Below, in pieces: positions 43,991 through 52,472 of a stretch of 64,000 bases of DNA. The DNA comes from Gemmatimonadota bacterium. Its GTDB lineage: Bacteria > Gemmatimonadota > Gemmatimonadetes > Palauibacterales > Palauibacteraceae. Positions within the stretch are counted from its first letter, which is position 1. Each line of letters starts with the position of its first letter. The position numbers and the translations under genes were made by a program. The notes under the pieces were generated by a model. It was not told the DNA's origin. It saw nothing but the letters and a program-made list of their open reading frames with translations, and did not search any database. Location of the stretch: NCBI GenBank assembly GCA_022820995.1, contig JAJEEM010000048.1, forward strand, positions 1-64,000, in the 5' to 3' direction.

Positions 43991-45808
43991 CTAGCTGGCG
44001 GTCTCCGCGAGCCAGCTCTCGATCGCGTCGCCGAGCGCGGGAAGGCTCAGCGCGCCGTTCTCCAGCACCCGGTCGTGGAACTCCGCGATGGAGAACGCCT
44101 CCCCGAGCCTGGCCTCCGCCTCCCGGCGCAGCCGCGAGATCTCGAGTTGCCCCAGCTTGTAGGTGAGCGCCTGGGCGGGCGAAGTGATGTAGCGATCCAC
44201 CTCGTTTTCGATGTTCACTTCGGCGAGCAGCGTGTTCTCGCGGACGAAGTCGATCGCTTCCTCCCGCGTCCAGCCGAAGGCGTGGATGCCGGTGTCGACG
44301 ACGAGCCGGCTGGCCCGCCAGGCATCGTACGAGGCGAGGCCGATGCGGCTGAGGTCGTCCGCGTAGAGGCCCATTTCATCGGCGAGCCGCTCCGCGTACA
44401 GCGCCCATCCCTCGACGAAGGCGACCGAGCCGAGGTGCTTTCGGAACTCGGGCAGGCCGTCGACCTCCTGGGCGATCGCCGTCTGGAGGTGGTGTCCGGG
44501 GATCGCCTCGTGGAAGCTGAGGACGTCGGCCTGGTACCTGGGCCGGATCTCGGGCCGGTAGGTGTTCACGTAGTACGTGCCGGGGCGCGATCCGTCCGGC
44601 GCGGGCTCCCGGTAGTAGGCGAGCACGCTCTGCGGCGCTTCGTACAGGGGGATCGGACGGATCACCATCTCCGTCCGCGGCGGGGTGCCGAACCAATCCG
44701 GCATGACGAGGGCCGCCCGCGCGTAGGCCTCCTCCGCCAGCTGCACGATCTCGCCCGGCCAGCGGAAATACATCTCCGGGTCCGATCGCAGTCGCTGCTG
44801 AATCTCCTTCAGGTCGGAGGCGCCGAGGACTTCCTCTCCAAGGGTCCGAAGCTCGTCGTGGATCCTCTCCAGCTCCGCCAGGCCCCGCGCGTGGATCTCG
44901 GCCGGCGTCAGGTCGAGCGTCGTGAGGTTGCGGATCATCGCCTCGTAGCAGGCGCTGCCGCCGGGCAGGCTGGAGAGTCCGATCCCCGCGCCCGTGCGCG
45001 AGTGCGGATAGAGTTCGTCGCGCAGGAAGTCGCGGAGTCTCGTGTACGCCGGTCGAATGCGCTCGGAGGCGGCCTCGCGGATGCCGTCCCGGAAATCGTG
45101 CCGCGTCCCCTCGGGCCACGCATCGAGCCGCGTACCCGCCGGAGCGTAGATGGGCCATTCCTCGACGGGTCGTTCGAGGAGGGCGTCGAGCTGCACGATC
45201 GTCCGGTTCACCGACGCGCGCGCCGCGACCCGTCCCGTCTCGAGGCCGGTGCGAAGGTTCGAGATGTAGTCGTCGATATAGTCGGCGAACGCGTTCCAGC
45301 GACGGATCATGCGCTCGCCGTCGACCGGCGTTTCGAGCGGCTGGGCGCCCACGATGTTGAGGAAGTCGAGCTGGAACCCTTCGCGGTGGTCCACGACCCA
45401 CACCTCGAGATCGCACGTCTGCTCGGCGACTTCCGCCGACAGCTGATGGTCGAGCGCGAGATAGGTCAGCCGGTTCCCGGGCGGCAGCGAGGCGAGGTCG
45501 ATCGCGCCGAGGGCATCGGCGAGGGCACGAACCTCGCGGCGGCGATTGTTGCGCCCGGACGGCGAGATGTCGCGGACGCGGTCGCTGAGGCGGTGCTCTC
45601 CCAGATAGGTCGCCTGCAGCGGGTTCCAGGAAAGGTAGGCGTCCCAGAAGCGGTCGCTGAGCGCCGAAAGGTCGCTGGGCGGGGCCGGGTCCGCCGTTTC
45701 GGCCGACCCCGGCTCGCAGGCCGTGATCGCGCACGCCATGAGAATCAGGACCGCGATCCGGCTCGCTGCTCCGTCCGGACGTTCGCTCCTGTCGCGGGTT
45801 GACGTCAT
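43991..45808 (-). CDS. DUF885 family lipoprotein, putative zinc hydrolase
   Basis: A 605-residue exported lipoprotein (lipobox AITACEP). DUF885 proteins are putative metallopeptidases; the family zinc motif appears as SFHEAIPGHHLQ, followed by EGWALYAERLADEMG and a C-terminal tail with YKLGQLEISRLR. Substrate unknown. ATG 45808 is chosen because it gives the signal peptide; the frame is open upstream without similarity. It diverges from the OsmC gene across 94 bases. Confidence 0.87.
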   Translation of the reverse strand: MTSTRDRSERPDGAASRIAVLILMACAITACEPGSAETADPAPPSDLSALSDRFWDAYLSWNPLQATYLGEHRLSDRVRDISPSGRNNRRREVRALADALGAIDLASLPPGNRLTYLALDHQLSAEVAEQTCDLEVWVVDHREGFQLDFLNIVGAQPLETPVDGERMIRRWNAFADYIDDYISNLRTGLETGRVAARASVNRTIVQLDALLERPVEEWPIYAPAGTRLDAWPEGTRHDFRDGIREAASERIRPAYTRLRDFLRDELYPHSRTGAGIGLSSLPGGSACYEAMIRNLTTLDLTPAEIHARGLAELERIHDELRTLGEEVLGASDLKEIQQRLRSDPEMYFRWPGEIVQLAEEAYARAALVMPDWFGTPPRTEMVIRPIPLYEAPQSVLAYYREPAPDGSRPGTYYVNTYRPEIRPRYQADVLSFHEAIPGHHLQTAIAQEVDGLPEFRKHLGSVAFVEGWALYAERLADEMGLYADDLSRIGLASYDAWRASRLVVDTGIHAFGWTREEAIDFVRENTLLAEVNIENEVDRYITSPAQALTYKLGQLEISRLRREAEARLGEAFSIAEFHDRVLENGALSLPALGDAIESWLAETAS

Positions 45809-45902
45809 CCTGCCCGTTCTCGATCGTTTCGTTTCCACATCATGCCCGAATCTCGCCGCCCGAAAATGCGGCGGGGAAGGCGGGTCCGTAAAGGAGAGCC
45901 CC

Positions 45903-46364
45903 ATGTCCGAACCGTTCTACACCGCCCGCGCGCGTCTCGAGAAGGTCGAGGGAGTGCACCGACGGGCCCGCCTCGAAGAGGGGACCGAGATCGACTTCGG
46001 CGTCCACGGACCCATCAAGTCCCACTACCGGATCGACGCGAAGGACCTGCCGCTCCCCGTCGACTACCAGGTGGCCGCGACCGGTGCCTGAATGCTGGGC
46101 ACGCTCAACGGCGCACTGGAAGTGCGCGGCATCCGCCTGGCTCCCGAAGACATCGCCGCCGAAGTGGAGGGGATCAACCGCCTCCGCGACCGCATGCCCA
46201 CGCTCGAGGAGATCATCGTCCACTACCGGCTCCGCATCCCGGCCGAGGCCCGGGAGACGGTGGACCGCGCGCTCGCCACACACGGCGCGAAGTGCCCCAC
46301 CGCTCGCTCGCTGGAGGGCGCGATCAAGGTCAGCTGGACCGCCGACATCGAGGAGACCAGCTGA
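45903..46364 (+). CDS. OsmC-family protein with in-frame TGA at the catalytic cysteine (candidate selenoprotein)
   Basis: Read through a TGA at 46089-46091, the frame encodes a 153-residue OsmC-like peroxidase subunit. OsmC/Ohr proteins reduce hydroperoxides with two cysteines; the first lies in a '(A)xxxxC' turn before a long helix, the second in KCP. Here the second is present (C131, GAKCPTARSL), the flanks of the first are conserved (DYQVAATGA before, MLGTLNGALEVRGI after), and the codon between is TGA (position 63), predicted selenocysteine. The two halves share one frame with no other change. ATG 45903 has an excellent AAAGGAG site. A hairpin follows (46111-46127). The alternative is a nonsense change or error splitting the gene. 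Confidence 0.8.
46111..46127 (+). promoter_or_regulatory. Candidate bacterial SECIS hairpin
   Basis: A perfect 6-bp stem (GCGCAC at 46111-46116 with GTGCGC at 46122-46127) closes a 5-base loop TGGAA. The loop starts 25 bases after the TGA and has G at its second position. This fits the general bacterial selenocysteine-insertion pattern: short stem, small apical loop with an early G, a few turns after UGA. The stem codes for ordinary residues at the same time. GC-rich DNA forms such hairpins by chance, so support comes mainly from its position. Confidence 0.6.
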
Positions 46365-46366
46365 TC

Positions 46367-46594
46367 ATGAGGGGCGGCGACGATCTCGTTCGCGTGTTCG
46401 AGGCCTGGGACGAGAGCGAATTCCTCGCTGCCAGGCTCGCCCTCGAAGCCGGCGACATCCCGTTCCGGATCGAAGGGGAGTTCGCGCCCGTGTCCTGGGG
46501 CCCGACGGCCGCCGCGAAGGTCCTCCGCGTGCCCGCGAACCGGTACGCAGAAGCGAAGCAGACGCTCCGCGACGCTCTCGCGCGGGATCGATAA
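46367..46594 (+). CDS. DUF2007-like small protein
   Basis: A 75-residue cytoplasmic protein beginning two bases after the OsmC stop. The pattern VRVFEAWDESEFLAARLALE, then IPFRIEG and LRVPANRYAEAKQTLRD, fits the DUF2007 'putative signal transducing' domain, a small ferredoxin-like fold of unknown role. It is probably co-transcribed with the OsmC gene. Confidence 0.72.
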   Translation: MRGGDDLVRVFEAWDESEFLAARLALEAGDIPFRIEGEFAPVSWGPTAAAKVLRVPANRYAEAKQTLRDALARDR

Positions 46595-48438: not shown

Positions 48439-48483
48439 GTAATACTCAAAGAAGTAATATTGTAGTACGCCAATGTGTAGTAC
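48439..48483 (+). promoter_or_regulatory. AT-rich promoter/operator region of the toxin-antitoxin pair
   Basis: This stretch is strikingly AT-rich against its surroundings. It contains two -10-like elements (TAATAC at 48440, TAATAT at 48455) and two direct copies of GTAGTAC (48462-48468 and 48477-48483) 15 bases apart. Ribbon-helix-helix antitoxins usually bind paired short repeats over their own promoter, so these are reasonable operator half-sites. No clear -35 box is seen. Confidence 0.5.
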
Positions 48484-48505
48484 CGCGTGGAGGGAGCTGG
48501 CTGGA

Positions 48506-48745
48506 ATGAAGCCCGTATCGCTGAAGATGCCCGGACACCTCGCCCGGGAGGTCTCCGAGGCCGCGCGCCGACGGGGCGTGAGCAGGTCCGCGCTGATCCG
48601 CGAGGCTCTCGAGGTGTTTCTGCGCAGGGGGAGGAGCGCGCCCCCCGTCTCCGCCCTGTCCCGGGCCGCCGATCTCGCCGGCGCCTTCGCCGGGCCCGAA
48701 GACCTGTCGGAGAACCCGGACTACATGCGTGGCTTCGGCCGGTGA
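48506..48745 (+). CDS. Ribbon-helix-helix antitoxin of a VapBC-type pair
   Basis: A 79-residue CopG/RHH-type protein: a beta-strand (VSLKMPGHLA) and two helices (EVSEAARRRGVSRSALIREALEV) for DNA binding, then a tail (DLSENPDYMRGFGR) likely to wrap the toxin. It probably represses its own operon and neutralises the PIN toxin. ATG 48506 follows a GGGAG site; an in-frame ATG at 48473 lies inside the presumed promoter. The stop overlaps the toxin GTG. Confidence 0.85.
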   Translation: MKPVSLKMPGHLAREVSEAARRRGVSRSALIREALEVFLRRGRSAPPVSALSRAADLAGAFAGPEDLSENPDYMRGFGR

Positions 48746-49164
48746 AATGCGGGACCATTCTCGACACGGGCCCGCTGATCGCCTTCCTGAACTCCCGGGA
48801 CGGACATCACCGCTGGGCACGGGAACAATGGGCCCGCGTCGAACCCCCGTTTCTCACCTGCGAAGCCGTCATCGCCGAGGCGTGCTTTCTCGCGCACCGT
48901 CTCGGCTCCGGTGCGCCGGAAGCCGTGGTCTCGCTGGTCGAGCGGGGCGTGCTCGACGTGTCGTTCCGGCTGGCGGATGAGGCCGCCGCGGTCGCGCGGC
49001 TGATGAAGAAGTACGACGACGTGCCGATGTCCCTGGCGGATGCGTGCCTCGTCCGGATGTCCGACCAGCACCCGGGCAGCGTGGTCCTCACCCTGGACGG
49101 CGATTTCAGGATCTACCGCAGAAGCAAACGCCAACGCATCCCGACCCGGATGCCCGATGGGTGA
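48742..49164 (+). CDS. PIN-domain ribonuclease toxin (VapC-like)
   Basis: A 140-residue PIN nuclease that would cut RNA when free of antitoxin. The acidic site is visible: D8 (ILDTGPLIAFL), E46 (VIAEACFL), D100 (SLADACLVRM) and D119/D121 (LTLDGDF). GTG 48742 overlaps the antitoxin stop (GTGA), the usual tight toxin-antitoxin coupling. All catalytic positions are intact, so the module looks functional. Confidence 0.9.
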   Translation: MKCGTILDTGPLIAFLNSRDGHHRWAREQWARVEPPFLTCEAVIAEACFLAHRLGSGAPEAVVSLVERGVLDVSFRLADEAAAVARLMKKYDDVPMSLADACLVRMSDQHPGSVVLTLDGDFRIYRRSKRQRIPTRMPDG

Positions 49165-49212: not shown

Positions 49213-50178
49213 TCAGCCGCCGGCGCCGTTGTGCGCGAGGAAGCGCTCGGCGTCGAGCGCGGCCATGCAGCCCGTGCCCGCCGCGGAGACGGCCTGCCGG
49301 TAGTAGTCGTCCATGACGTCGCCGGCCGCGAACACGCCGGGCACGTTCGTCTCCGTCCGCCACGGCGTGGGCATCTCCACGTAGCCGTTCTCCTTGAGGT
49401 CGACCTGGCCGCGCAGAAACTCCGTGTTGGGGATGTGGCCGATGGCCACGAACATCCCCCCCACCTCGATCTCGGACGCCTCGCCCGACACGGTGTCGCG
49501 CAGGCGGAGGCCGGTGATCGCGTCGTCCCCCAGCACCTCCTCGACGGTCGAGTTCCAGAGGAAGCGGATCTTGTCGCTGGCGAAGGCCCGCTCCTGCATG
49601 ATCTGCGACGCCCGCAGTTCGTCGCGCCGGTGGATGAGCAGGACCTCGCTCGCGAATTTCGTGAGGTAGAGGGCTTCCTCCATCGCGCTGTCTCCGCCTC
49701 CCACGACGGCCAGGACCTGGTCCCGGAAGGCGGGCAGGGCGCCGTCGCACACCGCGCAGGCGGACACGCCGCCGCCGCTCTGCGCGAGCCGTTCCTCGCC
49801 CGGCACGCCCAGCCAGCGCGCGTTGGCGCCGGTCGCCACGATCACCGTCTCCGCGCGCACCTCCTGCTTCCCGCTCGAGCGGAGGAGGAACGGCCGGCCG
49901 GAGAAGTCGACCTCGACGATGTCCTCCGTGACGACGCGCGTGTCGAAGCGCACCGCCTGCTTCTTGAAGTCCAACATCATATCGATGCCGCTAACCCCTT
50001 TGGGGAAACCGGGATAGTTCTCCACGTCCGTCGTGAACATGAGCTGTCCACCGGGGATCATGGTGCGGCTCCCCGCGCCCTCGAACACGAGCGGATCGAG
50101 GTTCGCCCGGGCCGCGTAGATCGCCGCCGTCCACGCCGCGGGACCCGAGCCGATGATGACGACCGTCTCTGGTTTCAT
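49213..50178 (-). CDS. trxB: Thioredoxin reductase
   Basis: FAD/NADPH disulfide reductase that keeps thioredoxin reduced. The 321-residue protein has the FAD loop [18 protein letters not shown], the redox pair C141/C144 in CAVCDG, the NADPH site [15 protein letters not shown], and the C-terminal [21 protein letters not shown]. It could supply electrons to the peroxiredoxin and OsmC proteins in this window, which is inference. ATG 50178 gives the canonical start. Confidence 0.96.
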
Positions 50179-51668: not shown

Positions 51669-52472
51669 TCAGGTTTCCGGGGTGGTCGACACCATCTCCG
51701 CTTGCTCGGCCTCGGCCTCGCGTCGACGAACCGCCTCGGCGCGGGCCAGCGCGACGTCGCGCGCCTGAATCAGCGCCCTCGTCACGTTCTTGATTGACGG
51801 CTCTCCCTCGGGGAACCTGTCCGGAGCCTGCGTCGCGTCTTTCGTCACGGGGTCTCTCCCTTCGACATCGTCTTGGCGGGCCGACGTTTCCCGCGTGCCC
51901 GCATGCCGTGCGGCGGGAACCTCCCGCATGCGCCAACCGTCAGGAAGCAGAGGCAGGATATCGACGCGTTCCGACGCGGCGACGAGGGTCGGGGCCCGGC
52001 TCGAAGTGTCGTAGACCAGCCACTCATCTGCAATGGGGCGATACAGTTCGACGAAATTGCGCCAACTTCGCTCGAACCGGCGGCGGGCGACGGGTTCGGG
52101 AATGTCGTGCCCGCCCTCGGTCACGCGCCGGGCGACCCGCTCGACGACGTGCTGCGCCGAGGGCAGCCGAAGGTAAACCAACCCGATCCGGTAGCCGTGC
52201 TCACGCCATCTGATGAGACGGCGCGCGTAGCTCCGGCCGCTCAGGGTGGTCTCGAAAGCGAAGTCCATTCGCTCCGCGGCGAATGATTCCATCCGCTTGA
52301 GCGCGATCCGGCCCGCCTGTTGCGCGGCCGCCTCTGGGGCCTCGGGATTCAGCCGCGCTGCGATCAGGTCGCCGTTCACAAAGGGAATCTCCGACCCTGC
52401 GAACTTCAGATATTCCGTCGCAAACGTCGTCTTCCCGGCCCCGTTCGGACCGGCGATGACCAGCACCTTCAT
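51669..52472 (-). CDS. Zeta-toxin-like P-loop kinase with an extra C-terminal segment
   Basis: A 267-residue protein. Residues 1-185 are a zeta-toxin-type kinase: Walker A AGPNGAGKTTFA, the NGD motif, FETTLSGR, and RVTEGGHDIPEPVARRRF. Zeta toxins phosphorylate peptidoglycan precursors, but many chromosomal members have other or unknown roles. The last 60 residues (after GTG-coded Val near 51849) are polar and helical (KNVTRALIQARDVALARAEAV) and resemble a separate small protein with its own GGGAGAG site, so two genes may have been joined. No epsilon-type antitoxin is recognisable. Confidence 0.8.
   Translation of the reverse strand: MKVLVIAGPNGAGKTTFATEYLKFAGSEIPFVNGDLIAARLNPEAPEAAAQQAGRIALKRMESFAAERMDFAFETTLSGRSYARRLIRWREHGYRIGLVYLRLPSAQHVVERVARRVTEGGHDIPEPVARRRFERSWRNFVELYRPIADEWLVYDTSSRAPTLVAASERVDILPLLPDGWRMREVPAARHAGTRETSARQDDVEGRDPVTKDATQAPDRFPEGEPSIKNVTRALIQARDVALARAEAVRRREAEAEQAEMVSTTPET

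Follow-up and report, generated by a model that had tools for sequence, protein, structure and literature searches.

The window analyzed here is a 64,000-nt stretch of DNA (contig JAJEEM010000048.1) from a Gemmatimonadota assembly of 3.72 Mb in 78 contigs (GCA_022820995.1). Its (+) strand carries a gene of the OsmC superfamily whose reading frame is interrupted by a single TGA, and the locus contains the following features:

45890..45896 (+): Shine-Dalgarno-like AAAGGAG, seen in the sequence 5′ of the ATG at 45903
45903..46364 (+): OsmC-type gene, a very probable selenoprotein gene, 153 residues with TGA codon 63 taken as selenocysteine (Sec); ordinary TGA end at 46362–46364
46089..46091 (+): in-frame TGA (putative Sec63), where OsmC proteins carry their first redox cysteine
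46111..46127 (+): bacterial SECIS-type hairpin GCGCAC-UGGAA-GUGCGC (stem GCGCAC 46111–46116, loop TGGAA 46117–46121, GTGCGC 46122–46127), over codons 70–75, with the loop 25 nt past the UGA
46293..46295 (+): codon for Cys131 (KCPT); in alignments this residue matches OsmC's second redox cysteine

The original prediction described two ORFs in one frame split solely by a TGA, and this is what we found (45903–46088, TGA at 46089–46091, and 46092–46364); it also expected annotation pipelines to break up the gene, and a table-11 ORF list indeed gives two pieces. The strong AAAGGAG site that it reported was located as listed above, and AGGAG-type sites also precede many relatives of the gene. Joined across the TGA, the frame encodes one OsmC domain, as had been proposed, scoring 46.6 bits against the Pfam gathering cut-off of 27.5 (PF02566; E-value, 4.8e-12), which places the protein in the OsmC superfamily. 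Searched on its own against PDB sequences, the protein gave no match, while a profile search did: in the alignment to the solved Thermus OsmC 1ukk (E-value, 4.1e-6), residue 63 falls on the Cys of HAGC and C131 on the Cys of CP, so that both the TGA at the first redox cysteine and the intact second one (GAKCPT) agree with the prediction. AlphaFold gave a mean pLDDT of 96.1 (21 family members; monomer model), the predicted fold is that of OsmC/Ohr proteins with the two redox residues in their known positions, and the site of the TGA lies within a predicted helix spanning residues 52–74. Searches for relatives of the gene on plasmids by tblastn found none, and an Rfam scan of positions 45800–46500 returned a chance-level match alone (H19_2; E-value, 0.81).

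Several other genes surround the locus. A small ORF without a Pfam match (46367–46594, +) begins two bases 3′ of the OsmC stop and may be co-transcribed, and a DUF885 gene (43991–45904, −) is divergent from the OsmC gene; DUF885-like neighbors, judged alike by eye, occur in a cluster of eight related loci. Farther downstream are two small ORFs (48473–49164, +) that, by their motifs, look like a ribbon-helix-helix antitoxin and a PIN-domain toxin, a thioredoxin-reductase-like gene 3 kb from the OsmC gene (49213–50178, −; Pfam Pyr_redox_2, with CAVC in the translation), and an AAA_33/Zeta-toxin-like kinase (51669–52472, −; Pfam). Across the family, no common partner gene was recognized among neighboring ORFs, which were picked automatically and include many spurious ones.

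Conservation of the TGA among relatives

Relatives 90–97% identical to the gene belong to metagenome-assembled genomes (MAGs) named Gemmatimonadetes/Gemmatimonadales or Candidatus Palauibacter, so the window's genome is likely a member of Candidatus Palauibacter. Within the order, 30 of 43 genomes matched, and 48 of the 49 matches contained one TGA, the 49th being a fragment that begins 3′ of the site. Relatives were also read from a scan of named genomes (best 80 of 104 relatives) and from searches of two phyla, namely 395 sampled genomes of the window's own phylum (E-value, 1e-8; loci among the matches listed) and 396 sampled genomes of a second phylum, that of genome G402 and Acidobacteriota by label (E-value, 1e-10). 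In the latter sample, 32 of the 396 genomes matched; the 33 matches include one fragment lacking the site and one weak partial match with TGA, and TGA was present in 30/30 loci read. Besides members of the two phyla searched, the carriers include MAGs labelled Eisenbacteria and Deltaproteobacteria.

Altogether, 198 related loci were read, with TGA at the site in 190, Cys in 6, and 2 falling short of the site. Specifically, TGA was found in 185/185 loci aligning over >120 residues, down to 32% identity, with 145 of them distinct (counted on TGA rows, identical coding sequences merged), and the 13 short-aligning loci comprised 5 with TGA, the 6 with Cys, and the 2 not at the site. All six Cys loci are canonical OsmC genes aligned only in part (92 to 105 residues); full-length Cys OsmC genes drop out under the >120-residue rule because their alignment with this lineage is only partial, and one tally of 100/100 includes duplicates of the same genomes. 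The proposed check of homologues at codon 63 came out in favor of TGA, and the UGA at the redox position is kept in relatives, as looked for in a bacterial selenoprotein. No Cys form appeared among the close relatives read, i.e., the best 80 of 104, the matches listed, and the 395 + 396 sampled genomes.

A tree of 97 rows places the window gene in a branch of 48 rows, beside three other branches of 31, 14, and 4 rows, and the 48-, 31-, and 14-row branches each mix members of both phylum samples. Since the length rule leaves no Cys rows, the tree is silent on the root and on whether Sec or Cys came first. Another OsmC gene of the window's genome, on contig 17 (G000:C17:29534-30001; L002:1339-1806), likewise has TGA at this site; it is 34% identical to the window gene, belongs to a separate branch of the family, and has the hairpin GCGCGC-UGGAA-GCGCGC.

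These data bear directly on whether the gene might be a pseudogene with a premature stop, or a sequencing or assembly error in which TGC or TGT was misread. The same TGA recurs in all 185 long-aligning relatives and in many separately assembled genomes, which speaks strongly against either account. In addition, change at first and second codon positions is low on both sides of the TGA (p12 of 0.221 upstream and 0.234 downstream, with p3 of 0.461 and 0.501, respectively). We regard decay or error as scarcely credible.

The hairpin downstream of the TGA

The hairpin was originally described as a perfect 6-bp stem with a 5-base loop, 25 bases after the TGA. Stem and loop are as described, and the distance is true of the loop, but the stem begins earlier, 19 bases past the TGA. 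Criteria for bacterial SECIS elements given in a 2026 review comprise a loop of 3–9 nt, a stem of 4–16 bp, a G in the first two loop positions, a distance of 16–37 nt from the UGA, and a folding energy of at most −7.5 kcal/mol (PMC13188914). The window hairpin lies within these limits, with 7 bp, a 3-nt loop (GGA), a spacing of 26, and −9.7 kcal/mol (an alternative form has 6 bp, a 5-nt loop, and a spacing of 25), as do the hairpins of 140 of 145 relatives. The suggested SECIS check near 46089–46140 nevertheless gave a divided answer, as the 52-nt single-sequence fold showed no significant excess over shuffles (z of −0.15 and +0.59). Moreover, 137 of 1,026 TGA triplets in the window (both strands; 13%) are followed by a hairpin within the same limits, and a single hairpin is weak evidence because the window is G+C-rich and so many TGAs qualify. 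By sequence comparison, it is the conservation of the TGA together with the hairpin in relatives, not the lone hairpin, that exceeds chance and carries the case.

A complete stem was found in 136 of the 145 distinct genes. In these, codons 71 and 74 read GCA…GTG (76 genes), GCG…GCG (48), or GTG…GCA (12); the other nine genes have GCC…GCC (5), GTG…GGA (2), GCG…GTG (1), or GCG…ACA (1). Two base pairs therefore co-vary while residues 71 and 74 swap Ala and Val. Ala71 is GCA in 76 of 77 Ala71/Val74 sequences, and at other positions of the genes compared GCA accounts for 5.8% of Ala codons. In a set of 37 diverse sequences, 97.7% of cells are paired. Covariation scored 0.264 versus 0.157 in shuffles, with 0/500 shuffles as high; none of the slid registers had a change on both sides. 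Two simpler counts showed no excess, in that pairs with a double change numbered 2, a value reached by 93/500 shuffles, and further pair types numbered 4, below the shuffle mean of 5.2. Synonymous change in 29 ungapped genes was 0.135 over codons 70–75, against 0.381 upstream and 0.414 downstream, and these codons form the lowest six-codon window, the next separate one being 0.158 at codon 28. In six canonical Cys OsmC genes, only 2–3 of the 6 pairs can form in the same register.

Four of the nine genes with incomplete stems (L222, L225, L231, and L232) have another hairpin within the published limits. A single clade from the same bacterial family (L051, L052, L055, L057, and L058) is without the standard hairpin and offers only a 4-bp GGGC-GGA-GCCC, 18 nt past the UGA, whose −4.6 kcal/mol falls short of the −7.5 limit. 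Run against its own genome, a model of the hairpin recovered the two OsmC genes at 1e-16 and 1.6e-14, with the next match at 0.023; because only these two rise above noise, the model is family-specific and blind to the genome's other selenoproteins.

Selenocysteine machinery and decoding of codon 63

The original prediction hinged on selA, selB, selD, and tRNA-Sec being present in the rest of the genome, and searches located all four, i.e., the set that a bacterial selenoprotein requires. Specifically, selA is on contig 34 (C34; 492 bits), selB on contig 74 (C74; 367.7 bits) about 5 kb from tRNA-Sec (79.7 bits; called tRNA-SeC with anticodon tca by ARAGORN), and selD on contig 78 (371.6 bits). 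The selD gene has its own in-frame TGA in the motif GAGUACKLG (L022 around 1531; G000:C78), with a stable predicted hairpin 3′ of it.

We also compared selA occurrence across the 395 genomes of the phylum. The OsmC profile matched 121 of them at 1e-8, and six of these, having ordinary Cys OsmC, were reassigned to the non-carriers, leaving 115 carriers of TGA-OsmC and 280 non-carriers. With presence called at 1e-50, selA was found in 108/115 carriers versus 174/280 non-carriers (Fisher p, 5e-12, kinship ignored); the seven carrier genomes without a selA match at this threshold are 73–95% complete. Among nine further host genomes, some labelled outside Gemmatimonadota, eight have selA.

The full set of parts for Sec insertion (UGA, hairpin, selA, selB, selD, and tRNA-Sec) is thus present and conserved. 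In bacteria, SelA makes Sec-tRNA using selenophosphate from SelD, and SelB delivers the charged tRNA to a UGA that has a SECIS behind it. By analogy with this pathway, SelB carrying Sec-tRNA would bind the hairpin 25 nt past the UGA at codon 63 and insert selenocysteine. The readthrough originally proposed is supported by the sel genes, by tRNA-Sec, and by the joint conservation of TGA and hairpin in relatives, and these lines of sequence evidence make it almost certain that TGA 63 is read as Sec.

Two other ways of reading the TGA have to be weighed against selenocysteine. First, translation might stop at the TGA and restart at the adjoining ATG (TGAATG), yielding a split OsmC made as two halves. 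ATG directly follows the TGA in 55 of the 145 distinct genes, the window gene included; in the other 90, the next codon is CTG, CTA, CTC, or CTT, of which CTG is a possible rare start. Such a break would also fall inside helix 52–74 and leave out the catalytic residue, and the split accounts for neither the hairpin covariation nor the selA association, so we consider it very improbable. Second, a suppressor might decode UGA as Trp or another residue without selenium, for which we saw no supporting point. TGA is an ordinary stop in the SSF and thioredoxin-reductase-like genes and at the end of the OsmC gene itself, related OsmC proteins have Cys at the site, and a SECIS-type hairpin accompanies a complete Sec pathway; the chance of such decoding appears negligible. 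For the reasons given with each, we rejected pseudogene, base error, re-initiation split, and UGA as another residue.

Place in the OsmC superfamily and probable function

That OsmC-like selenoproteins had been predicted earlier from marine metagenomes, as originally noted, is borne out by reports on the Sargasso Sea in 2005 (3 sequences, motif UxxT; PMC1088965) and on the GOS data in 2008 (5 sequences; PMC2398784), and such proteins also appear in two reviews, from 2022 and 2026 (PMC9312934 and PMC13188914), which give accessions MCS5647933.1 and MBR72571.1 for the OsmC-like protein. Those proteins and the window protein have in common the OsmC family (COG1765, pfam02566), Sec at a redox site, and a downstream hairpin. 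They differ in the motif, insofar as the printed motifs alone can be compared, with UxxT in the Sargasso/GOS sequences and UxxxT (UMLGT and ULAGT) in the window lineage. They differ, too, in their Cys homologues, for which the 2005 table gives 10 in the Sargasso set and 17 in genomes (PMC1088965), whereas our searches found none within the window lineage.

The best NCBIfam match of the window protein is NF041052, the OsmC_like_Se model for OsmC-related (seleno)protein (E-value, 1.5e-4), with 21.7 bits where the cut-off is 95. Of 40 diverse rows, 39 match this model weakly (best E-value, 1e-9, or ~39 bits as estimated from single-sequence scores), and nine relatives from several branches, scanned singly, gave 21.8–28.4 bits in eight cases and no match in one. 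The OsmC peroxiredoxin model TIGR03562 has a cut-off of 85.8, below which lie the window protein (12.0), the second copy (20.6), and the best score seen (38.9; L056). For the Ohr peroxiredoxin model TIGR03561, the window protein gave no match at an E-value of 1, and 7 of the 40 rows match below the cut-off (best E-value, 0.028). The same genome also has a PRK10738-like OsmC (G000:C78:97124-97411), which is likewise in the OsmC family above the Pfam cut-off but has an ordinary Cys at the site (VAACAA) and no TGA; its best NCBIfam match, PRK10738.1, is at 80.2 against a cut-off of 138. Because of its 21.7 bits against 95 for NF041052, the window protein is placed by sequence in a separate OsmC lineage, distinct from the annotated OsmC_like_Se family and, within the searches made, Sec-only.

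In fold, the window protein resembles the Ohr/OsmC peroxidases (X. fastidiosa Ohr, E. coli OsmC 1nye, and T. thermophilus 1ukk, the last also in the positions of its two redox residues); the 50 PDB matches listed are all OsmC/Ohr proteins or unnamed structural-genomics entries, at 10–21% identity. The peroxidases have Cys at the first redox position, where the window protein would have Sec. Eleven residues are invariant in 40 diverse rows (R20, H35, D54, U63, G66, T67, L72, R75, G90, C131, and P132). Among them, R20 aligns with an Arg of a Cys OsmC, and D54, although invariant, is one column off the Glu position of the Ohr site, a column that we placed by the PEQL motif, so that the Ohr Glu is not matched column for column. 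In Ohr peroxidases, a catalytic Arg and Glu lie beside the peroxidatic Cys (PMC5962072).

Taken together, the sequence evidence makes the gene very probably that of a selenoprotein of the OsmC superfamily, likely a peroxide-detoxifying one. By analogy with Ohr enzymes (PMC5962072), Sec63 would be the peroxidatic residue, attacking an organic hydroperoxide or peroxynitrite. Cys131 would then resolve the resulting selenenic acid by forming a selenenylsulfide, and the enzyme would be reset by a dithiol reductant, either lipoyl groups as for Ohr or a thioredoxin system; the thioredoxin-reductase-like gene at 49213–50178 is a possible source of this reductant. Peroxidase chemistry is likely on these grounds, and we think it probable, though appreciably less so than Sec insertion, that the protein has thiol/selenol-dependent peroxidase activity. 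It might instead be a selenoprotein with another substrate, i.e., an OsmC-fold redox or thiol-transfer protein. The matching NCBIfam OsmC/Ohr subfamily models, scoring far below their cut-offs, are consistent with such a role, and so is the stretch with the conserved V34 and H35, which is absent from one Cys OsmC row and unmatched in the other. Against this, the protein shares with OsmC/Ohr its fold, both redox positions, and an Arg close to the start, and we consider a non-peroxidase role unlikely, at perhaps a third of the weight given to peroxidase activity.

By sequence, this selenoprotein is of a kind already described, from a lineage that falls outside the annotated family and has no close Cys forms within the searches made. 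Among selenoprotein papers on Gemmatimonadota and Acidobacteria, judged by title or the start of the abstract and with subscription papers mostly outside this scope, none treats the lineage; no word beginning with "selen" or "OsmC" occurs in the body text, references excluded, of the paper describing the order Palauibacterales (PMC10469786) or of the Gaopeijiales paper (PMC11651109). According to the 2026 review, Cys homologues exist for nearly all selenoproteins (PMC13188914). Pair-based searches rely on that, and the 2005 survey required such homologues (PMC1088965). Searches of this type can miss a widespread lineage that lacks close Cys forms.

A broader reading, to which we give an even chance, is that this is an old, multi-branch, Sec-only OsmC family (Gemmatimonadota, Acidobacteriota, and some other MAGs) in which Sec has never reverted to Cys and a SECIS lying over the active-site helix dictates helix residues. 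If so, this would hint at a reaction that cysteine cannot sustain. A hairpin inside the catalytic helix, with residue changes that track base pairing, offers a clear example from nature of an RNA structure that limits protein sequence, and the finding suggests a selenium-based peroxide defense in Gemmatimonadota.
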